Below the pieces are notes generated by a model. It made no database searches. It was not told the DNA's origin and saw only the letters and a program-made list of their open reading frames with translations. A stretch of DNA of 64,000 nt from an uncultured Flavobacteriaceae bacterium. Its GTDB lineage: Bacteria > Bacteroidota > Bacteroidia > Flavobacteriales > Flavobacteriaceae. The translations under genes were made by a program, and so were the position numbers. Below, one piece after another: positions 52,575-62,075 of the stretch (within the stretch, counting starts at the first letter, position 1; every line of letters starts with the position of its first letter). Location: the NCBI GenBank assembly GCA_947494325.1, contig CANLUS010000008.1, forward strand, positions 62,001 to 126,000. Reading direction: 5' to 3'.

Positions 52575-54254
52575 ATGAAGAGAATCTTACTAAGTTTATA
52601 CACATGCTGTATACTCTTTTCTTGCAACAATACGTCAAAAAAAGAGGTAGTGTCAATTAAGCAGGTGAATTTTAAAAAGGAAATGCAAAGCCATTTTAAA
52701 AATCATTACGCTTCACTTTATAATTCTACTCAATTAAAAAAACTTCAATTAGATAGTTTACAATGGAGCAATACTTTTTATAGGAATAATGGATATGAGC
52801 CTATTTGGATTAATGATTCAATTGATATTTCGAGTAAGGCAAATGCTCTAATTAAAGAGTTTTCGAATGCAAATTTATATGGATTACATGCAAGTCGATA
52901 TCACTTTTCAATTATTAAAGAGCTTGGTCATAGTTTGCATAAAATAGGTGATAAATCTTCACGTTATGAGCTAGCCTCCAAATTGGAAGTGCTATTAACA
53001 AATTCTTATTTTACTTATGGAAAGCATCTAAATTATGGTGTTCTAGATTCTATTGATTCTATCACGGTATTACCCCGAAAGAGATTTAATATAGATATGC
53101 CAACATATTTAGCTAAAGCTCAAAAAAGTGATAGTTTATTAGAAAAATTACTTGAGTTACAACCTAATATTCCACAGTATAGAACCTTGCAAAATGGATT
53201 AACTAAGTATCTTAAAAATGCTTCATTGAGTACCAATAGTGTTTTAGTTAAAAATTTTCGGGCTGATTCTATCAAGGCTATAAAACAAGCTAAACAAGCG
53301 CTTGTACTTCATCAATACTTAGACTCGATTCCAACGGATTCATTATATATTATTGCTCTTAAAAAGTTTCAGCGTGATCACGCTTTAAAACCAGATGGTT
53401 TAATTGGTAAGAACACTGCAAAAGCCTTGTCTATGAGTCCTTATGACTATTATTTAAAAATAGTAGCAAACCTAGAAATGTGGCGTTGGAAAGAGCCTTT
53501 AGAGGAGAATCGCATTTTTGTGAATGTACCCGCATATGAACTAAAATTATATGAAAATGACTCACTCACATTCGAATCTAAAATAGTAGTTGGTAAGAAG
53601 AAAACAGCTACTCCCGAGATTAAAGATTCCTTGCAATACATTATTGCCTATCCTTATTGGAACGTACCTAGAAAAATATCATTAGAAGAAATTATTTTAA
53701 AGGCACAAAAAGACTCGACTTATTTTGACAGGAATAATTATGAGTTACTTACCTATAGGAAGGATACAGTGAATATGAATACAATAGATTGGAACAAAAT
53801 GAATGAGGATACATTTACTTATCTTATTAGGCAGAAAGGAGGCGGTGCTAATTCTCTTGGATATGTTAAATTTATTTTCCCAAATAAATATGCCATTTAT
53901 TTACACGATACTCCCGCCAAAAGCTTATTTAATCGAGAACTAAGATCCTTTAGTCATGGCTGCGTGAGAGTCGAAAAAGCATTGTCAATGGCAAGTCATA
54001 TACTTAAATCAGATAGGAATAGGTACACGCCCGATAGTATGTACGCCTACATTAAAAAGAGAAAAGAAAAATCAATAAAACTCAATAGTACTTTGCCAGT
54101 GTATATTTATTACTTTACAGTAAAAGGTAGTGATGAAGGAGAATTAGTTTTTTACAACGATTTATATGGAACCGACAGGAAGCTTACACATCTTTTAATT
54201 CAACAAAGAAATAAGTTTAATAAAAGATTAAGTAAGAATATTATAGCTAATTAA
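52575..54254 (+). CDS. L,D-transpeptidase (YkuD/YcbB-like) lipoprotein
   Basis: A lipoprotein signal (ILFSC, Cys17) is followed by a ~240-residue N-terminal domain, a peptidoglycan-binding repeat LKKFQRDHALKPDGLIGKNT, and the catalytic YkuD domain with SHGCVRVEKAL (Cys463). Such enzymes make 3-3 or lipoprotein crosslinks in peptidoglycan through an active-site Cys. The family is related to E. coli YcbB. The convergent neighbour at 54247 is a second L,D-transpeptidase and overlaps by 8 bp. Confidence 0.92.
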   Translation: MKRILLSLYTCCILFSCNNTSKKEVVSIKQVNFKKEMQSHFKNHYASLYNSTQLKKLQLDSLQWSNTFYRNNGYEPIWINDSIDISSKANALIKEFSNANLYGLHASRYHFSIIKELGHSLHKIGDKSSRYELASKLEVLLTNSYFTYGKHLNYGVLDSIDSITVLPRKRFNIDMPTYLAKAQKSDSLLEKLLELQPNIPQYRTLQNGLTKYLKNASLSTNSVLVKNFRADSIKAIKQAKQALVLHQYLDSIPTDSLYIIALKKFQRDHALKPDGLIGKNTAKALSMSPYDYYLKIVANLEMWRWKEPLEENRIFVNVPAYELKLYENDSLTFESKIVVGKKKTATPEIKDSLQYIIAYPYWNVPRKISLEEIILKAQKDSTYFDRNNYELLTYRKDTVNMNTIDWNKMNEDTFTYLIRQKGGGANSLGYVKFIFPNKYAIYLHDTPAKSLFNRELRSFSHGCVRVEKALSMASHILKSDRNRYTPDSMYAYIKKRKEKSIKLNSTLPVYIYYFTVKGSDEGELVFYNDLYGTDRKLTHLLIQQRNKFNKRLSKNIIAN

Positions 54255-54969
54255 TAGCGAGTGTCGCGTTATCAATTAATTTTGATTTACTCAAATAAGT
54301 ATCTTTTTTAGAATAAATAAAGAGGCAAGTACCATTTTTTATGGTATTAATAATTTGTTTGTAGTTCTTTTTTGGTAAAGAAGGACAGCCGAGGCTTCTT
54401 CCTAATTTTCCATTTTTTCGGATAAAATCTTTGCTAACATAATCTGCTCCGTGAATTACAATGGCTCTAGTTCTTGCGTTGCTATTAGAATATTCTAATC
54501 CGTCAAGACGTAATGAGAATCCATGCTTACCACTATATGTTTCAGCCGTTTTATAAAAACCAAGACTGCTTTGATAACTACTTATTTTGTTCGAAAATCG
54601 TGTTGCAAATTCATATCCAGAATTTCGACCATGAGCCACTAAGCTCTTATAAACTATTTTTTTCGTTTTAATATCTATAACGAACAACCGGTTTTCGTTC
54701 GAAGATTTGCTAAAATCTATAACCGTTAAGAGTTCTTTATTCTTAATTTTATCAGTATCTGTTAACTTTACATATCCTTGTAATGCAGCCTGAAAGGCAT
54801 CAAATTTTAACTCTTTTTCATTGAGTGCAGTGTAGAAGTCTATCGAATACTTTTTAAAAGAAATATGGGTTTCTTCTTTTGGTAACGGCTTACTTGGAAT
54901 AGCCTCCCATGCATAAATTGGAAATATCAATAAAATGATAATAGATAATAATAATGATCTTTTTTTCAT
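54247..54969 (-). CDS. Murein L,D-transpeptidase catalytic domain-family protein
   Basis: A signal peptide (MKKRSLLLSIIILLIFPIYA) precedes a domain with AIVIHGADYVSKDFIRK (His174) and KLGRSLGCPSLPKKNYKQ (Cys195), the active-site pair of the YkuD-2 (murein L,D-transpeptidase catalytic) family. The length of 240 aa is typical. It converges with a larger L,D-transpeptidase gene, the two stops overlapping by 8 bp. Substrate specificity is unknown. Confidence 0.88.
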   Translation of the reverse strand: MKKRSLLLSIIILLIFPIYAWEAIPSKPLPKEETHISFKKYSIDFYTALNEKELKFDAFQAALQGYVKLTDTDKIKNKELLTVIDFSKSSNENRLFVIDIKTKKIVYKSLVAHGRNSGYEFATRFSNKISSYQSSLGFYKTAETYSGKHGFSLRLDGLEYSNSNARTRAIVIHGADYVSKDFIRKNGKLGRSLGCPSLPKKNYKQIINTIKNGTCLFIYSKKDTYLSKSKLIDNATLAIN

Positions 54970-55888: not shown

Positions 55889-58303
55889 TTAATAAAGATT
55901 TTTGTACTTCGCAGGATTTACTTCATGCATTAAACCGTAAATGCGCTCAAATATATCTTCAATTGAAGGTTTAGAAAAATAGTCTCCATCAGTGCCGTAA
56001 GCAGCCCTATGATCTTTTGCCGCAATTGTAATAGGTTGACTATCCAAAAACTGATATCCTTTTTGTTTATTCAATATTTGGTCAAGTAAATAACCCGAAG
56101 CACCACCAGAAACATCTTCATCTATAATAGCAAGTCTGTTCGTTTTTTCAAGGCTTTTTACTGTATCATGATTTAAATCAAAAGGTAACAGACATTGTGC
56201 ATCAATAATTTCAATATCTATCGACACTTTGGCCAATTCTATTGCAGCTTCTTCTACTAGTTTCAGCGTAGATCCGTATGATACTACTGTAATATCGGTA
56301 CCTTCTTTTACGGTTTCAACAAGGCCAATAGGAGTTAGGAACTCTCCCATATTAGTTGGTAACTTTTCTTTAAGTCGATATCCGTTTAAATTTTCTACGA
56401 TTAACGCGGGTTCATCACTTTTGAGCAATGTATTATAAAAACCTGCCGCTTTCGTCATGTTTCTTGGAACAAGGATATACATACCTCTCAGCAAATGAAT
56501 AATCGCACCCATATGAGATCCAGAATGCCAAATACCTTCTAATCTATGTCCACGTGTTCTAACTATCAAAGGCGCTTTTTGCTTTCCAAAAGTACGATAC
56601 CTTAAAGTCGCCAAGTCATCACTTAAAATTTGCAATCCGTATAATAAATAATCTAGATATTGGATTTCTGCAATGGGTCGTAACCCGCGCATCGCCATTC
56701 CAATACCTTGCCCCATAATTGTGGCCTCTCTAATACCAGTATCGGCTATTCTATATTCGCCATATTTATCCTGTAAGCCTTCGAGTCCTTGATTGACATC
56801 ACCAATTTTACCAGCGTCTTCTCCAAAAATTAAAACATCATCATTATTCGACAAAATGTTGTCAAAATTCTCTCGAAGAACGATGCGAGCATCTACAAGT
56901 TTTTCTTCTTCTGAGTAGGTTGGTAACACTTCCTTAATCGCAGTAGCTTTTGTTAAGTTTTCACTGTAAAGGTGACTACTATAGTTGACATATTCTTCTT
57001 GAGTGTAGTCCTTAATCCACTGCTGTAACGAGCTCTTTTTAGGAAATTGCTCATCTTTTATAAAAACCAAAACTTTTCTTGCAGTAGACAAGATATCTTT
57101 TTTAAGAGGTTCTTTAATCGCCTCTAAATCTGATTTTAATTTTGCGATAAATACGCCGTTACTGCTTTGTTCGCTAATTTGCTCAATCAAGGAAATTAGT
57201 TCTTTGCTTTTATGCTGAATAGGCTCTAAATAAGCACTCCAAGCTTCTCTTTTTGCTAAGCTTACTTCTTTTTTTGCAGCCCTTTCGATTTCTCGGATTT
57301 CCTCTTCATTTTCAAAAATACTAAGCATCCATTCTCGCATTTTTACGATACAATCATGGTCTCTTTCCCATTGTAAACGTTCGGGAGTTTTATAGCGTTC
57401 ATGAGACCCAGAAGTCGAATGACCTTGAGGTTGTGTTAATTCTTTCACATGAATTAAAACTGGAACATGCTCTTTACGTGAAATTGTTGATGCTTGGTTA
57501 TATACGTCAATCAATTTAGAGTAATCCCACCCTTCAACTACGAAAATTTCATATCCTAGATTATCTTCATCACGCTGAAATCCTTTCAAGATTTCAGAAA
57601 TATTCTCCTTTGTTGTTTGATGTTTAGCATGAACAGAAATACCATATTCATCATCCCAAACGCTAATCACCATAGGTACTTGAAGAACACCAGCTGCGTT
57701 AATCGTTTCAAAAAACAAACCTTCCGAAGTACTAGCATTTCCAATTGTACCCCAAGCAATTTCATTACCATTATTTGATAAATTTGTTTTGACTTTCAAT
57801 TGTTCTTCACGTCTGAAAATTTTAGATGCCTGGGCTAAACCAAGTAGTCTAGGCATTTGACCTGCCGTTGGAGAAATGTCGGCACTTACATTTTTTTGCG
57901 CCATTAAATTTTTGAAACTACCATCTTCGTTCAACGAATGTGTAGAAAAATGACCTCCCATTTGTCTACCAGCCGAATACGGTTCTGCTACAATATCTGT
58001 ATGTGCATATAATCCGGCAAAAAACTGCTTTGGAGTCAATTCGTCAATGGCCATCATAAAAGTTTGGTCACGATAATATCCAGATCTCCAATCTCCATCT
58101 CTAAACGCTTTTGCTAACGCCAATTGGGGTACTTCTTTTCCATCACCAAAAATACCAAACTTCGCTTTACCAGTTAGTACTTCTCGGCGTCCTAATAGAC
58201 TACATTCTCTACTAATAACAGCAGTTCTATAATCATTTAAAATTTCTCTTTTAAAATCTTCATACGATAGTTTCTGTTGAGAATCGATCAGTTTTTCCGA
58301 CAT
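55889..58303 (-). CDS. Fused alpha-keto acid dehydrogenase E1 alpha/beta
   Basis: This 804-residue protein joins the E1 alpha and beta parts of a branched-chain-type 2-oxo acid dehydrogenase. The alpha half (1-~430) has HGHSTSGSHERY-like QGHSTSGSHERYKTPERLQW, a phosphorylation-loop-type region. The beta half begins near LVDARIVLRENFDNILS, with VLIFGEDAGKIGDVNQG, AEIQYLDYLLYGLQ and GHRLEGIWHSGSHMGAI. The thiamine-diphosphate motif reads GTIGNASTSEG (GNAS at 188-191) where E1 alpha usually has GDG, with WDDEYGIS downstream. An ATG 27 bp upstream was rejected for the ATG at 58303. The E2 and E3 partners are not in the window. Confidence 0.9.
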   Translation of the reverse strand: MSEKLIDSQQKLSYEDFKREILNDYRTAVISRECSLLGRREVLTGKAKFGIFGDGKEVPQLALAKAFRDGDWRSGYYRDQTFMMAIDELTPKQFFAGLYAHTDIVAEPYSAGRQMGGHFSTHSLNEDGSFKNLMAQKNVSADISPTAGQMPRLLGLAQASKIFRREEQLKVKTNLSNNGNEIAWGTIGNASTSEGLFFETINAAGVLQVPMVISVWDDEYGISVHAKHQTTKENISEILKGFQRDEDNLGYEIFVVEGWDYSKLIDVYNQASTISRKEHVPVLIHVKELTQPQGHSTSGSHERYKTPERLQWERDHDCIVKMREWMLSIFENEEEIREIERAAKKEVSLAKREAWSAYLEPIQHKSKELISLIEQISEQSSNGVFIAKLKSDLEAIKEPLKKDILSTARKVLVFIKDEQFPKKSSLQQWIKDYTQEEYVNYSSHLYSENLTKATAIKEVLPTYSEEEKLVDARIVLRENFDNILSNNDDVLIFGEDAGKIGDVNQGLEGLQDKYGEYRIADTGIREATIMGQGIGMAMRGLRPIAEIQYLDYLLYGLQILSDDLATLRYRTFGKQKAPLIVRTRGHRLEGIWHSGSHMGAIIHLLRGMYILVPRNMTKAAGFYNTLLKSDEPALIVENLNGYRLKEKLPTNMGEFLTPIGLVETVKEGTDITVVSYGSTLKLVEEAAIELAKVSIDIEIIDAQCLLPFDLNHDTVKSLEKTNRLAIIDEDVSGGASGYLLDQILNKQKGYQFLDSQPITIAAKDHRAAYGTDGDYFSKPSIEDIFERIYGLMHEVNPAKYKNLY

Positions 58304-58327
58304 ATATAGGTGTTGTTTGGGGTTGTG

Positions 58328-58335
58328 CAAAGGTA
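58328..58335 (-). promoter_or_regulatory. Candidate -7 box (TACCTTTG)
   Basis: An exact TANNTTTG match on the minus strand, about 24 bp before the E1 ATG at 58303. It also supports that start over the upstream ATG at 58330, which would lie inside the box. Confidence 0.5.
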
Positions 58336-58396: not shown

Positions 58397-61210
58397 CTAA
58401 AAGAAGCCTCTTTTTACAAAATTGATAATTGCTCCAGGATCTAATGTTAATACAAAACGGATTTTTTGATCATAGTTATTAAGGGAAGGTTCAAGACCTA
58501 AACTAGATTGTAAAGGAAAGTACACTTCAAAAATATTATGTACTAAATTTAGACGAATGCCTGTGTCATATTTAAATTGAACCTCTTGATTTCGACTTTT
58601 GTAATATCCGGCGTCTGCATACGCTTCGATCCAACGCCAAATACTTACACTCCCATTTGCACTAATCATCCATTGATTGGCAAATCTATTTTCAAATTGT
58701 GATTTAAATCCACCCTCCGAAATGATAATCTGCTGACTTAAAAATCCAGCTTCTTCAGATCTACCTAAATAATTGTAATCGAAAAGATAGTCAGATGGAC
58801 GATCTAATGAAAAGCTGAAAAAATTGCCCGAATTTTTGGTGTTATTGTATAGAAAAGCACCTGCAAAGAAGCGTAGGTCATATTGACGATTCTTATCAGT
58901 AAGTTTACGATATCGAAAATCAAGAGCAGCTTTACCAAAATTCTTTGAAACCTGAAGGTCCGTTGAATATCGAACATCCTTAATAATGTCTGGTTTAGAC
59001 GATGAAAAACGTACATTAAAAACGTTATAGGCATCGGATTCTAATGTTGGGGTTCCAGGTGCAGTTTCTCTATTAACAAGAACATATCTTGCCGAAAGTG
59101 ACTTCCCCCCAACATCTCTGAGACTTTTTCTTTTGAATAAGATTGTCGCAAATGGAGTAAATCTAGTATATGATAAGTTGGGGGCATATTGAAAGGTGCT
59201 GCCACCAATTCCGAAGCGGTACCTATAAACACTTGTTTTTTCAGGAAGCTGTTCATATAATAAAGAAAATGATCCAGAGAATTTGTTGCTTTTTAATCCG
59301 TACGTAGGTGTTATTTTATACAACCATTTCTTTTTAAAAATTGCTTCATTATACAATCTGGGTCCAATTAAAAAGCCATCATAAAAATTATAATCTGTGT
59401 AGACATTATAAAATACTTGATTGTAATAAGGATTTTCAAGATCTTTAAAAAAACGGAATTGAATAGGTTTGTTAAAAAGCCCATTTAAATTTTTCCAATT
59501 GTCCCGTAAATTCAATTCGGGGTATAAAAATTCATAATTTAAAGAAAGCTTATTATAATCTCCTTTTGGAATTGTTATGCTCGCTGTAGTATCGATGTTG
59601 GTTAGCCATTTTTTAAATTTCACCTCTTTCTTGTTTACCCCGTAAAGAGCAATAGGTGCCGTAAAGTTTCTCTTATTTTTTATGAAAACAGTTACAGAAT
59701 CTTTGGTTTTTTTAACCTTACTTATTGTGTAATCTATTTTCTTTTTTGATTGGATATAGTCCTTGAAAAACCAATTTAGGTCTTTGTTTGTTTTATTTGC
59801 AACGATGGATTGAAAGACACGACTATTCGTTTCTTTTAATTTATTTCTTTTATAAAACTCTATTATACTTTTTGGAATGATACTATCTTGTAAGTATTCA
59901 TCTAAATAGCGAAGTCCTAACCCTGCCTTATATTTATTTACTATTTTTCTATTAAAATTTGATAACGAATCGGCCCTTGTACTCAGTGATTGATCTAAAT
60001 TTTTACGTGCCGCAAATTGATACACAAAAGGATATTTACCATTAAAATCGAGTTTCGCGATATTAAAACTGCGAACTCCCCAAATTTTTGAGATATTACC
60101 CATGGCTTTAATTTCTGGATAAAATTTCTCCACATATTGCATTAATAAATAGGTCTGTAAACCATCGACCAACCAATAATCATGTCTTCTGTTCACAACT
60201 AAGGTGTTCTCAATATATTTCTTGGTAAGTACTTTAAACATTTTTATATCCCATTCAAATACTCCCGAAAAAGGGTTGAATATTTTAGGTAGTTGATTTA
60301 AACCATAAATGGGATTTTTATTATAGGATATTTTATTTATTAATATTTTTTCGTGTGGATAAGGACCCAAATGTTTATGGATAAATGCCAGTTGTCTATT
60401 CACAACATCTGTTTTTACCTGTTTGTTGAGAGTAGTACCATTTAAGTTGGAGATGACTTCTAATGAATCCGTTTTTAAGATATTAAAATCATTAAAGAAG
60501 CTAATACTTAATTCAATATCTACTCTATTTTCACCAGTCAATTTATGAACCGTAAAAGGTGCATCTAAGATCTTTTGAGAATTTAAATCACTGTTTAATG
60601 AAACACCTTCGGGTAATTTTAACTCAATATCATAATTTGTCGGACTCATATAAAAATCATCCATATTTAAATTATTCATTGTATTCCATTTCGTATCAAA
60701 AACGGCTGGCACCAAATGCCAATATCTTAGATTATAGTTGGTGCCATTCTTACCATATTTGGTGAACTTGTCTTGAGGAATTTTAATACTATAAGTTGCA
60801 CTAATTACGGTAGAGTCTTTCGGTTTTAAAGATTTGTTTAATATAACTCTAAGAATATCGGGATCATCGCTAGATACATCCCATTTTAAAAATTGATAAT
60901 TTTCTGAAATAGCTCTTATAGCTGATCTACCTCGATTTTTACGACTAGAAAAATAAAGACTCTTATCATAATCTTCAATGAGTCTTCTTGATAAAGGTGA
61001 GCGCCTATTTCTAAAGCTATTCGCCCAATTATGAAAGTATATGGTATCTAAGTTCTGTTTACTTTTATTGATAAAAGTAGTATGCTGCAATATTTGAAAA
61101 GTTGAAGTTTCAAAATCAAAAGAAGCATTTATTTTTATCGTGTTATTTTGAGCTTTTAACCCAGCGCTACAACATAAAAAGAAAAATAATATGAATTTTA
61201 ATCTAATCAA
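58397..61210 (-). CDS. M1 aminopeptidase-like protein fused to an outer-membrane barrel, zinc site absent
   Basis: A signal peptide (~1-20) precedes an M1-type N-terminal beta domain (IKINASFDFETSTFQILQHT, YFHNWANSF) and a catalytic-domain-like region around 250-480. Where M1 enzymes have HEXXH about 18 residues before the WLxEGF segment, this protein has TKKYIEN (329-335) before WLVDGLQTYL (346-355), so the zinc ligands are gone. The exopeptidase GxMEN loop is replaced by PIYGLNQLP. The C-terminal ~370 residues are repeated amphipathic strands ending in a terminal Phe (FVKRGFF), consistent with a beta-barrel. It is probably a non-catalytic surface protein. No partner is visible. Confidence 0.8.
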   Translation of the reverse strand: MIRLKFILFFFLCCSAGLKAQNNTIKINASFDFETSTFQILQHTTFINKSKQNLDTIYFHNWANSFRNRRSPLSRRLIEDYDKSLYFSSRKNRGRSAIRAISENYQFLKWDVSSDDPDILRVILNKSLKPKDSTVISATYSIKIPQDKFTKYGKNGTNYNLRYWHLVPAVFDTKWNTMNNLNMDDFYMSPTNYDIELKLPEGVSLNSDLNSQKILDAPFTVHKLTGENRVDIELSISFFNDFNILKTDSLEVISNLNGTTLNKQVKTDVVNRQLAFIHKHLGPYPHEKILINKISYNKNPIYGLNQLPKIFNPFSGVFEWDIKMFKVLTKKYIENTLVVNRRHDYWLVDGLQTYLLMQYVEKFYPEIKAMGNISKIWGVRSFNIAKLDFNGKYPFVYQFAARKNLDQSLSTRADSLSNFNRKIVNKYKAGLGLRYLDEYLQDSIIPKSIIEFYKRNKLKETNSRVFQSIVANKTNKDLNWFFKDYIQSKKKIDYTISKVKKTKDSVTVFIKNKRNFTAPIALYGVNKKEVKFKKWLTNIDTTASITIPKGDYNKLSLNYEFLYPELNLRDNWKNLNGLFNKPIQFRFFKDLENPYYNQVFYNVYTDYNFYDGFLIGPRLYNEAIFKKKWLYKITPTYGLKSNKFSGSFSLLYEQLPEKTSVYRYRFGIGGSTFQYAPNLSYTRFTPFATILFKRKSLRDVGGKSLSARYVLVNRETAPGTPTLESDAYNVFNVRFSSSKPDIIKDVRYSTDLQVSKNFGKAALDFRYRKLTDKNRQYDLRFFAGAFLYNNTKNSGNFFSFSLDRPSDYLFDYNYLGRSEEAGFLSQQIIISEGGFKSQFENRFANQWMISANGSVSIWRWIEAYADAGYYKSRNQEVQFKYDTGIRLNLVHNIFEVYFPLQSSLGLEPSLNNYDQKIRFVLTLDPGAIINFVKRGFF

Positions 61211-61349: not shown

Positions 61350-62075
61350 TTAGAAATTTGGTTTTAAGCTATACTTAGAATAGAATTTATTAAAATGTTC
61401 AACAGCTTCATCTGCTGTATCGACTACTCTAAATAACTTTAGATCACCGGGGCTTACATTCCCATATTTTTTAATAAGTGTCTGCTCAACCCAATCCAAT
61501 AAACCACTCCAAAATTCTCGACCAACTAGAATAATTGGAAAGCGACCGATTTTTTTGGTTTGAATTAATGTCATAGCTTCAAAAAGTTCATCGAGTGTGC
61601 CGAAACCACCTGGCATTACTACAAAACCTTGAGAATACTTTACAAACATTACTTTGCGGACGAAGAAATAGTCAAATTCTAAGTTTTTATCGCGGTCGAT
61701 CCATGGATTATCATGCTGCTCGAAAGGAAGTTCAATATTCAATCCAACCGATGTTCCTTTACCGCGATTTGCTCCTTTATTTCCGGCTTCCATAATACCT
61801 GGTCCACCACCTGTAATTACACCAAAACCGCTTTGAGTTAATTTATAGGCAACTTCTTCTGCTAACTTATAATATTCGTGGTCTGGGCTCGTGCGCGCAG
61901 ATCCAAAAATGGATACGCAAGGCCCAATTTTACTTAATTTTTCATAGCCATCAACAAATTCAGACATAATCTTGAATATTGCCCAAGAATCATTAGTTTT
62001 TATTTCATTCCAAGTTTTTTGTTGAAGTTTTTCTATGATTTTTCTTTCTTCACTTTGATTTGTATCGTTCGTCAT
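61350..62075 (-). CDS. LOG-family (TIGR00730) Rossmann protein
   Basis: This 241-residue protein has the two LOG motifs: GVITGGGPGIMEAGNKGANR and VMPGGFGTLDELFEAMTLIQ. LOG enzymes release cytokinin bases or hydrolyse nucleoside 5'-monophosphates to base and ribose 5-phosphate. The extended N-terminus (SEERKIIEKLQQKTWNEIKT) marks the larger bacterial subgroup. It is 27 bp downstream of uvrA and may share its transcript. Confidence 0.9.
   Translation of the reverse strand: MTNDTNQSEERKIIEKLQQKTWNEIKTNDSWAIFKIMSEFVDGYEKLSKIGPCVSIFGSARTSPDHEYYKLAEEVAYKLTQSGFGVITGGGPGIMEAGNKGANRGKGTSVGLNIELPFEQHDNPWIDRDKNLEFDYFFVRKVMFVKYSQGFVVMPGGFGTLDELFEAMTLIQTKKIGRFPIILVGREFWSGLLDWVEQTLIKKYGNVSPGDLKLFRVVDTADEAVEHFNKFYSKYSLKPNF

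Follow-up and report, generated by a model that had tools for sequence, protein, structure and literature searches.

M1 (gluzincin) aminopeptidases such as ERAP1, puromycin-sensitive aminopeptidase and the Deinococcus radiodurans enzyme (6koy) combine an N-terminal beta domain with a catalytic helical fold. Both parts recur in the protein described here, which, unlike these enzymes, has neither HEXXH nor the third Glu nor GxMEN and carries an additional C-terminal outer-membrane barrel. The same full-length architecture is found in catalytic M1-barrel proteins from other families of the class and order (L040-L062 and others), which keep HE[VILT]GH, the third Glu and GMEYP where our protein does not. 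Likeness as a pseudo-M1 protein is found in Tma108, a yeast translation-associated factor that is not known to carry a barrel. This M1 member is discussed among the pseudometallopeptidases and is reported to interact with nascent proteins (PMC11266112). With the Omp85/TpsB superfamily (BamA, TamA/TamL, Sam50, PlpD) our protein shares a barrel of about 16 strands, in which strands 11 and 12 are linked by a long conserved loop, and the possession of an N-terminal module, but it is without POTRA and without RG[FY]. Heinz and Lithgow (2014) distinguished ten Omp85 subfamilies (PMC4104836); the N-terminal modules covered in section 10 of that survey do not include an M1 domain, no word beginning with "peptidase" occurs in its main text, and its "Metallo" group has PF00149, a domain different from M1. 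In Flavobacterium johnsoniae, BamG, BamH, BamM and BamP take part in outer-membrane biogenesis, BamM being a metal-containing surface lipoprotein with bound calcium (PMC12611786). Among the titles and abstract openings listed in searches of the open-licence literature, none dealt with a barrel protein of the M1-Omp85 or pseudo-M1 kind.

The protein is encoded in a 64,000-nucleotide stretch of DNA from an uncultured Flavobacteriaceae bacterium, called the window in the following (Table 1). The analysed span covered 58397-61207, and residue numbers of the model and of alignment A3 equal ORF numbers minus 1. AlphaFold modelled the whole chain with a pLDDT of 88.7 and a pTM of 0.86 as an M1 fold followed by a C-terminal outer-membrane barrel, in line with the original prediction. 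The window protein alone had no match in Pfam, NCBIfam or PDB. Judged by its sequence, the upstream neighbour is presumably a LOG-type protein, and the downstream one a branched-chain 2-oxo acid dehydrogenase E1-type alpha/beta fusion. Conserved gene neighbours look metabolic or related to DNA repair and give no hint on function, and the window's neighbour genes were not seen within the 1.5 kb flanks of the catalytic M1-barrel loci.

Table 1. Features of the pseudo-M1 barrel gene and its neighbours in window coordinates.
Feature	Coordinates	Strand	Basis
Whole gene, pseudo-M1 peptidase and Omp85-like barrel, 937 aa	58397..61210	minus	TTG start, intact ORF, AlphaFold model
Signal peptide, ORF residues 1-21, cleavage about ...LKA/QN	61148..61210	minus	assigned by eye from sequence; N-terminal helix in model
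M1 N-terminal beta domain, model residues 21-255	60443..61147	minus	AlphaFold model, VIA; limits set by eye from modelled strands and helices
Catalytic-like helical domain of M1 fold (model residues 256-487), without its zinc site	59747..60442	minus	model, Foldseek, VIA, alignment
YGLNQLP, conserved replacement of GxMEN/GMEYP loop, model residues 301-307	60287..60307	minus	alignments
KVLTK (model residues 325-329), HEXXH equivalent aligned without gaps	60221..60235	minus	alignments
WLVDG, equivalent of WMDEG, third zinc ligand Glu to Asp	60161..60175	minus	alignments
Small all-beta linker domain, model residues 488-560	59528..59746	minus	model
C-terminal outer-membrane barrel, Omp85-like, about 16 strands from model residue 596	58400..59527	minus	model, Foldseek, VIA
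Long loop joining strands 11 and 12, at the position of L6 in Omp85, ...DYLFDYNYLGRSE...GGFKS	58673..58843	minus	model, alignment
C-terminal tail beyond last strand, low model confidence	58400..58444	minus	model, alignments
Upstream neighbour, same strand	61350..62075	minus	ORF
Downstream neighbour, same strand	55889..58330	minus	ORF

Model residues 20-597 followed M1 structures in VIA, with the best score for 8sw0 (Z 22.5, rmsd 3.5, 468 residues aligned) and a Z of 21.4 over 374 residues for the two-domain M1 structure 6koy. The top Foldseek matches of the model were M1 peptidases as well (best E 3.3e-17), and the M1 fold extends through residues 250-480, where it had been predicted together with two landmarks, FHNWANSF and WLVDG, both of which the ORF contains as described. 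From the window sequence alone the homology is not visible, with no match and no PF01433. The window protein could, however, be aligned over its full length with 23 class-level loci carrying HExGH, and the nine catalytic M1-barrel proteins in alignment A1 are 22-26% identical to it. PF01433 was present at E ≤ 1 in 17 of the 23 members of A1, only nine of these 17 being catalytic, and above cut-off in all six catalytic homologues scanned. M1 descent was therefore accepted on the basis of catalytic homologues, PF01433 in relatives and the fold, not of a single-sequence search, and the window protein is very probably a zinc-less M1 pseudo-peptidase.

The window ORF contains no HExxH. The four positions of the zinc site (HEXXH-x18-E) are occupied by K, V, K and D, and the gapless equivalent of HEXXH is KVLTK, ORF residues 326-330, which is helical in the model. 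The loss thus agrees with the original prediction, whereas the replacement it had named, TKKYIEN, only overlaps this gapless equivalent, which begins three residues earlier. GxMEN is gone from the window protein, also as predicted, but the loop, thought to be absent, is represented by YGLNQLP, conserved in A3 with Tyr, Gly and the last Pro in 58/58 rows each and Asn in 55/58, its residue-by-residue alignment to GMEYP being ambiguous. The zinc ligands are missing in orthologues too: HExGH is kept in all 23 best-scoring class-level loci (L040-L062), and HExxH is absent from all 36 family and order loci (L004-L039, window included). Both His and both Glu are present in 28/28 catalytic rows and both His in 0/44 zinc-less rows; two of the three ligands survive in a single zinc-less row (L224), and lone ligand residues in three rows at the first His, four at the second His and seven at the third-ligand Glu. 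Lys takes the first His position in 58/58 rows of A3 but in 20/44 of the wider zinc-less set. A conserved zinc site built from other residues is not visible in A3. Across residues 21-487 every His, Cys and Glu stays below 90% conservation; 90% or more is reached by D117, D184 and D413 only, of which D413 alone lies in the catalytic-like half. Columns with His in at least half of the rows, within residues 256-487, are 285 (41/58) and 382 (34/58; Asn in the window protein). Conservation in four blocks of the former site, picked by us, exceeded that of blocks drawn at random, only 81 of 5000 such draws scoring as high. In a comparison with locus L063, dN was 0.086 in the M1 half and 72% of synonymous sites had changed, so that dS is saturated and omega rough; computation supports that purifying selection acts on the protein.

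Of 120 genomes from Flavobacteriaceae, the family of the window, 115 gave a long match at E ≤ 2e-92, its own included, and the gene is therefore not a chance ORF. One genome (G023; 99% complete, one contig) is without the protein, which is thus not universally essential. A tree was calculated from 72 hand-chosen rows (the window protein, 11 other family or order loci, 39 order regions, 12 later regions and nine of the 23 class-level loci), of which 28 have retained the catalytic residues and the other 44 are without them; one branch separates the two groups with an SH-aLRT of 100 (unrooted). A second tree, rooted on soluble M1 proteins, gave the same separating branch with an SH-aLRT of 99, the outgroup not forming one clade, with two of its eight rows elsewhere. 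Both are quick trees whose support values are SH-aLRT only, and composition is uneven in many of their rows. They leave out L174, which is the same gene as L039, and L218, a fragment of 496 residues that contains HEVGH; for the rooted tree L221 was exchanged for L293 and L294, and L295 was omitted. In four genomes from a different family within the order, the catalytic and the zinc-less form occur together. Most simply, the catalytic residues would have been lost in one old event, within a protein family that has remained intact on its other branch. The age of the protein and its wide distribution among the Flavobacteriaceae had been overlooked in the original prediction.

The strand-rich C-terminus, already predicted to be an outer-membrane barrel, has about 16 strands in the predicted models, as counted by us, the last one being short, and strands 11 and 12 are joined by a long loop. 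All 50 matches listed by Foldseek for the barrel were Omp85 proteins (Sam50, TamA, BamA), loosely superposed with TM scores by query of 0.32-0.47 and rmsd values of 7.4-14 Å. In VIA, ranks 1-36 belonged to the Omp85 superfamily (Z 16.6 to 13.9, rmsd 4.5-8.1 Å), the lowest of them tying with other barrels, the best of which had a Z of 13.9. The loop between strands 11 and 12 is better conserved than the rest of the barrel (3.38 vs 2.78) and partly modelled at low confidence (residues 822-828 under 50). We conclude that the barrel is probably of the Omp85 type, and so resembles the machineries by which outer-membrane proteins are inserted or exported. This likeness had not been noticed in the original prediction. 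The chain does end in the Phe that was predicted, yet as the end of a low-confidence tail past the last modelled strand and hence not clearly as a terminal-strand residue; an aromatic residue closes this tail in the zinc-less rows shown. A DUF5686 identity of the barrel was rejected: one of 58 barrels matched at E 0.0013, but the profile comparison reached at most 8.1%.

The POTRA fold has two helices, and L6 of Omp85 proteins carries the motif [VIL]RG[FY]. N-terminal POTRA domains are common in the superfamily, though some members do without them. No POTRA domain was found in the window protein, where residues 20-597 follow M1 structures, the linker at 488-560 is modelled as all beta and has neither of those two helices, and there is no Pfam match of any kind. 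Of the L6 motif, VRGF/Y and LRGY are named as forms (PMC12611786). At the corresponding place RG[FY] is absent, the window protein having DYLFDY..LGRSE and the other rows shown lacking it as well (the row of f72, from the same order, ends before the motif). This absence, the lack of PF01103 in all 58 barrels, the weak profile comparison (hhalign 0.3-53% against Omp85 sets, with at most 1.1% for the reversed control and 3.8% for the PorP control) and the Z of 13.9 reached by non-Omp85 barrels would suit a common outer-membrane channel or anchor that does not descend from Omp85. Its dead M1 domain would then act as a scaffold in the periplasm, for instance as an anchor to the cell wall or to a partner, and have no part in outer-membrane biogenesis. 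We consider this doubtful in view of the Foldseek places and VIA ranks filled by Omp85, of the long conserved loop placed, as in Omp85, between strands 11 and 12, and of M1-barrel proteins in the same order that do have the motif, although these may be of separate origin. All three f72 M1-barrel proteins have LRGY at the L6 place. PF01103 was found in one of the three when searched as a 300-residue piece and in none as 430-residue pieces or whole; a search of five f72 genomes found it in the M1 frame of G322 only. With profiles made without f72, the three sequences gave a best E of 0.67 (not significant) for bar_cat and 0.0012 for bar_pse; a match to the bar_all profile was dropped as circular, because that profile contained part of an f72 protein. 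The rooted M1 tree placed f72 outside the pseudo-M1/catalytic family at a position without resolution, so that the f72 protein may be an independent fusion; a shortened f72 sequence fell among the catalytic rows of the 72-row tree.

With an even number of strands, about 16, the N-terminal domain is expected to face the periplasm as POTRA domains do, except in the case of its translocation. The model thus does not support the display of the peptidase-like domain on the outer membrane that had been proposed, and the domain is likely to be periplasmic. An alternative is surface delivery as in PlpD (type Vd), an Omp85 protein by which an enzyme domain reaches the cell surface (PMC4104836, section 10). 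The window protein shares the order of an enzyme-like domain followed by a barrel, and an Omp85-like barrel exporting its own N-terminal domain would turn the pseudo-peptidase into an external binding protein, close to the idea of the original prediction. We regard this as quite unlikely, since in the model a folded linker domain joins the M1 domain to strand 1 and the even strand number makes the periplasm the default. In the place of the patatin passenger of PlpD the window protein has an M1 fold. Very unlikely is an M1 domain that is still enzymatic without zinc, or with another metal or cofactor, a possibility to which the old site, strongly conserved in A3 with an invariant Lys and Tyr and a nearly invariant Asn, would lend itself. 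The window protein has other residues at the general-base, zinc-ligand and exopeptidase positions, and A3 has no His, Cys or Glu conserved at 90% or more, D413 being the one Asp at that level in the catalytic-like half.

We therefore favour, with a probability of about 0.4, a reading in which the inactivated M1 domain replaces POTRA in front of a 16-stranded Omp85-like barrel and binds clients or partners in outer-membrane biogenesis. The pseudo-peptidase domain would sit in the periplasm, where the old substrate groove, its rim lined with the new set of conserved residues, may bind a peptide segment or a partner protein; this could then be presented to the barrel, or coupled with it, to be assembled into the outer membrane or carried across it. 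A putative binding or chaperone function is plausible, and assigning it to outer-membrane biogenesis, through binding and not catalysis, is tentative. That the protein is a subunit of the BAM complex was rejected, as neither the single protein nor the A3 profile had a PDB sequence match at E ≤ 10, in a sequence copy that may lack BAM chains; the structure library compared includes the BAM entries 9n2d, 9n2e and 9n2f. Dependence on type IX secretion was set aside as well: SprA_N was found in 39 of 44 selected genomes, whichever form of the protein they have, but likewise in G016, G023 and G055, which are without the protein, and it therefore does not discriminate.

Recent work has shown that unexpected subunits take part in outer-membrane biogenesis in Bacteroidota (PMC12611786). 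The protein described here, widespread and unmatched in Pfam and NCBIfam, combines a dead peptidase with an Omp85-like barrel and is thereby a candidate for a further factor of this kind. It is rather unlikely, though conceivable, that it represents a new Omp85-type subfamily of Bacteroidota with M1 in place of POTRA, in which a duplicate became a zinc-less receptor that takes up outer-membrane or surface-bound clients in the dead groove and feeds them to the barrel, and a quality-control peptidase would thus have evolved into an assembly or export factor common to the Flavobacteriaceae. The conversion from enzyme to pseudoenzyme is clear, and the active sister form persists in some genomes, which makes the change of function directly testable. 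The data suggest that a former enzyme has been taken over as a binding part of the cell envelope.

The gene belongs to a genome assembled to 3.64 Mb in 43 contigs, and the features located here are collected in the table. Of 579 confirmed stretches related to it, the top 80 make up the named-loci set; these include loci from Aureibaculum luteum (64%), from an uncultured Flavobacteriaceae bacterium (90%) and from many further named members of the Flavobacteriaceae. On this basis the window's family, f1, was taken to be Flavobacteriaceae. Alone, the window protein matched no Pfam family, NCBIfam family or PDB sequence, even at E <= 10.

Coordinates and locus lists of the features discussed
Feature	Position	Strand	Remarks
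Pseudo-M1/barrel ORF	58397-61210	minus	937 codons, TTG start
Convergent ORF 1	52575-54254	plus	slight overlap with ORF 2; presumably L,D-transpeptidase-type cell-wall protein
Convergent ORF 2	54247-54969	minus	presumably L,D-transpeptidase-type cell-wall protein
Full-length match in G049	C19:499753-502557		
Full-length match in G049	C11:7563-10361		
PF01103 match in G140	C1:65009-65755		frame of 1241 aa
PF01103 match in G285	C45:80350-80748		frame of 1106 aa
PF01103 match in G485	C82:114165-114593		frame of 1093 aa
Loci with the 417-442 aa insert protein			L065, L072, L088, L102, L103, L106, L107, L114, L116, L118, L119, L122, L136, L142

Whole-genome searches revealed full-length homologues outside the window's family, and in the alignment with these the N-terminal half was collinear with M1 proteins bearing GMEYP, HE[VILT]GH and W[ML]DEG. 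PF01433 was detected at E <= 1 in 17 of the 23 members of the alignment of both forms, just nine of which are catalytic; the profile built from this alignment retrieved ERAP, PSA, F3 and other M1 chains from the PDB with a best E of 6e-11. No M1 chains were found in the PDB with the profile of the zinc-less forms only (A3, made up of the window protein plus 57 named loci out of 80). AlphaFold with A3 gave a model with pLDDT 88.7 and pTM 0.86, for which M1 peptidases ranked top in both Foldseek and VIA (model and A3 numbering begins at the second codon, the ORF number being the model number plus one). On the model and the alignments, the N-terminal part of the window protein is assigned an M1 fold.

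Each of the 28 catalytic rows in the tree set had both His together with the catalytic and the third Glu. None of the 44 zinc-less rows had both His; a single one, L224, retained two of the three ligands, and isolated ligand residues remained in a few further rows. The string HExxH occurred in one ORF of the 80 named loci (77 ORFs >850 aa), that of L084, where it sits at about position 98, in the N-terminal portion of the frame and distant from the former site. Full-length regions taken from the order (n = 40) comprised 17 catalytic and 23 non-catalytic ones. As judged from the alignments, the zinc site is absent in the orthologues examined.

In a first, unrooted tree (72 rows, 856 columns, active-site columns excluded) a single branch with an SH-aLRT of 100 split catalytic from zinc-less forms. 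In a second tree, calculated from 398 M1-region columns of 81 rows with soluble M1 proteins as outgroup, the 44 zinc-less rows formed one clade (SH-aLRT 99). In order family f71, both forms were found together in four genomes (G407, G476, G485 and G549), so the loss of the zinc site came after or along with a duplication. The zinc-less L189 (G364:C33), from a genome assigned to f79, nested within the window's family in both trees, a placement that may reflect transfer or contamination.

Lys replaces the first His in 58/58 sequences of A3 and in 20/44 of the wider zinc-less set. In the A3 motif YGLNQLP, Tyr, Gly and the last Pro are each present in 58/58 and Asn in 55/58. Four blocks at the former site, with limits chosen after inspection of the alignment, outscored random blocks of the same domain in conservation (46 rows left once the set was thinned at 80% identity), 81 of 5000 draws being as high. 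Compared with the 90% relative, dN was 0.086 for the M1 half and 0.030 for the barrel; synonymous sites were close to saturated. By these sequence measures the dead site is conserved within the window's family, and the gene looks like that of a working protein, not a decaying one.

The barrel modelled alone gave pLDDT 79.5 and pTM 0.75. The strand count was about 16, with a short final strand, in the whole-protein and barrel-only models, and in both a single long loop joins strands 11 and 12, the position of L6 in Omp85 proteins. This loop, modelled with low confidence in part, is common to catalytic and zinc-less forms and reached a conservation of 3.38 bits, compared to 2.78 for the remaining barrel. 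All 50 Foldseek matches listed for the barrel were Omp85 proteins (E 4.1e-6 to 2.6e-4; TM-scores by query 0.32-0.47). In VIA, rows 1-36 belonged to the Omp85 superfamily with Z from 16.6 to 13.9, including FhaC and, presumably, Toc75, and the first other barrel followed at Z 13.9. Counting against an Omp85 identity, the RG[FY] motif is missing from the barrel, PF01103 was detected in 0/58 barrels and profile-profile comparison with Omp85 gave weak scores.

Three proteins of order family f72 (L293, L294, L295) combine an M1 domain bearing HEIGH with a barrel bearing LRGY. PF01433 was detected in 3/3; PF01103 rose above cut-off in 1/3 when searched as a 300-residue fragment and in 0/3 whole proteins. 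Their sequences indicate that M1-Omp85 fusions exist, and this fusion may have arisen separately. PF01103 was also found in frames of G140, G285 and G485, which may represent other Omp85 fusions.

Within the window's family, 115 of 120 genomes, counting the source genome, had a match at E <= 2e-92, which was partial in a few cases. For the other five, G016, G023, G055, G081 and G089, all frames from the profile search measured 617-760 aa, as soluble M1 proteins do. Loss of the gene is possible, since the one-contig, 99% complete genome G023 lacks a full-length copy. In the order, 183 of 246 genomes had a profile match at 1e-40, a count that takes in soluble M1 proteins. G049 has two full-length matches, which share 41% and 43% identity with the window protein.

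At least 72 of the 80 named loci have a LOG-type gene upstream, at least 72 an E1 dehydrogenase gene and at least 70 uvrA, in each listed case on the same strand; these neighbours, named from their sequences, are counted as lower bounds because some loci sit on short contigs. Other arrangements occur, for example in L008 and L038. Within the 1.5 kb flank of catalytic homologues none of the three was seen. Fourteen of the 72 LOG-containing named loci have, between the LOG-type and pseudo-M1 genes, a 417-442 aa protein that to the eye is presumably of the endonuclease/exonuclease/phosphatase type; those compared were homologous, and the window has no such protein at this place. The proteins at this place in L005, L006 and L018, the three scanned, carry the type IX secretion tail PF18962. 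A PF00149 calcineurin-like phosphoesterase gene of about 250 aa adjoins the catalytic gene in L040, L043 and L045 (3/3 scanned), and similar-sized genes occupy the same place in many other catalytic loci; in L055 the scanned neighbour is a histidine kinase, not a phosphoesterase.

Omp85 proteins with non-POTRA modules have been described by Heinz and Lithgow and proposed to act in assembly or translocation (PMC4104836); the main text of that survey contains no word starting with 'peptidase'. Another study describes TamL, TamL2 and the TamA homologue of F. johnsoniae as TAM members (PMC12045153). Tma108, an M1 member discussed among pseudometallopeptidases, is reported to interact with nascent proteins, which by analogy makes a binding role for a pseudo-M1 domain conceivable (PMC11266112). 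No description of an M1-Omp85 or pseudo-M1 barrel protein was found in the open-licence papers searched. In Omp85-type barrels the N-terminal module is periplasmic, as established for BamA and TamA. The sister proteins that keep the catalytic site may work in the periplasm as peptidases for quality control or trimming. In the zinc-less form, the module in front of the Omp85-type barrel would be an M1 domain without catalysis, the former substrate groove would hold a peptide or partner instead, and the protein would act at the outer membrane as an aid to assembly or export.
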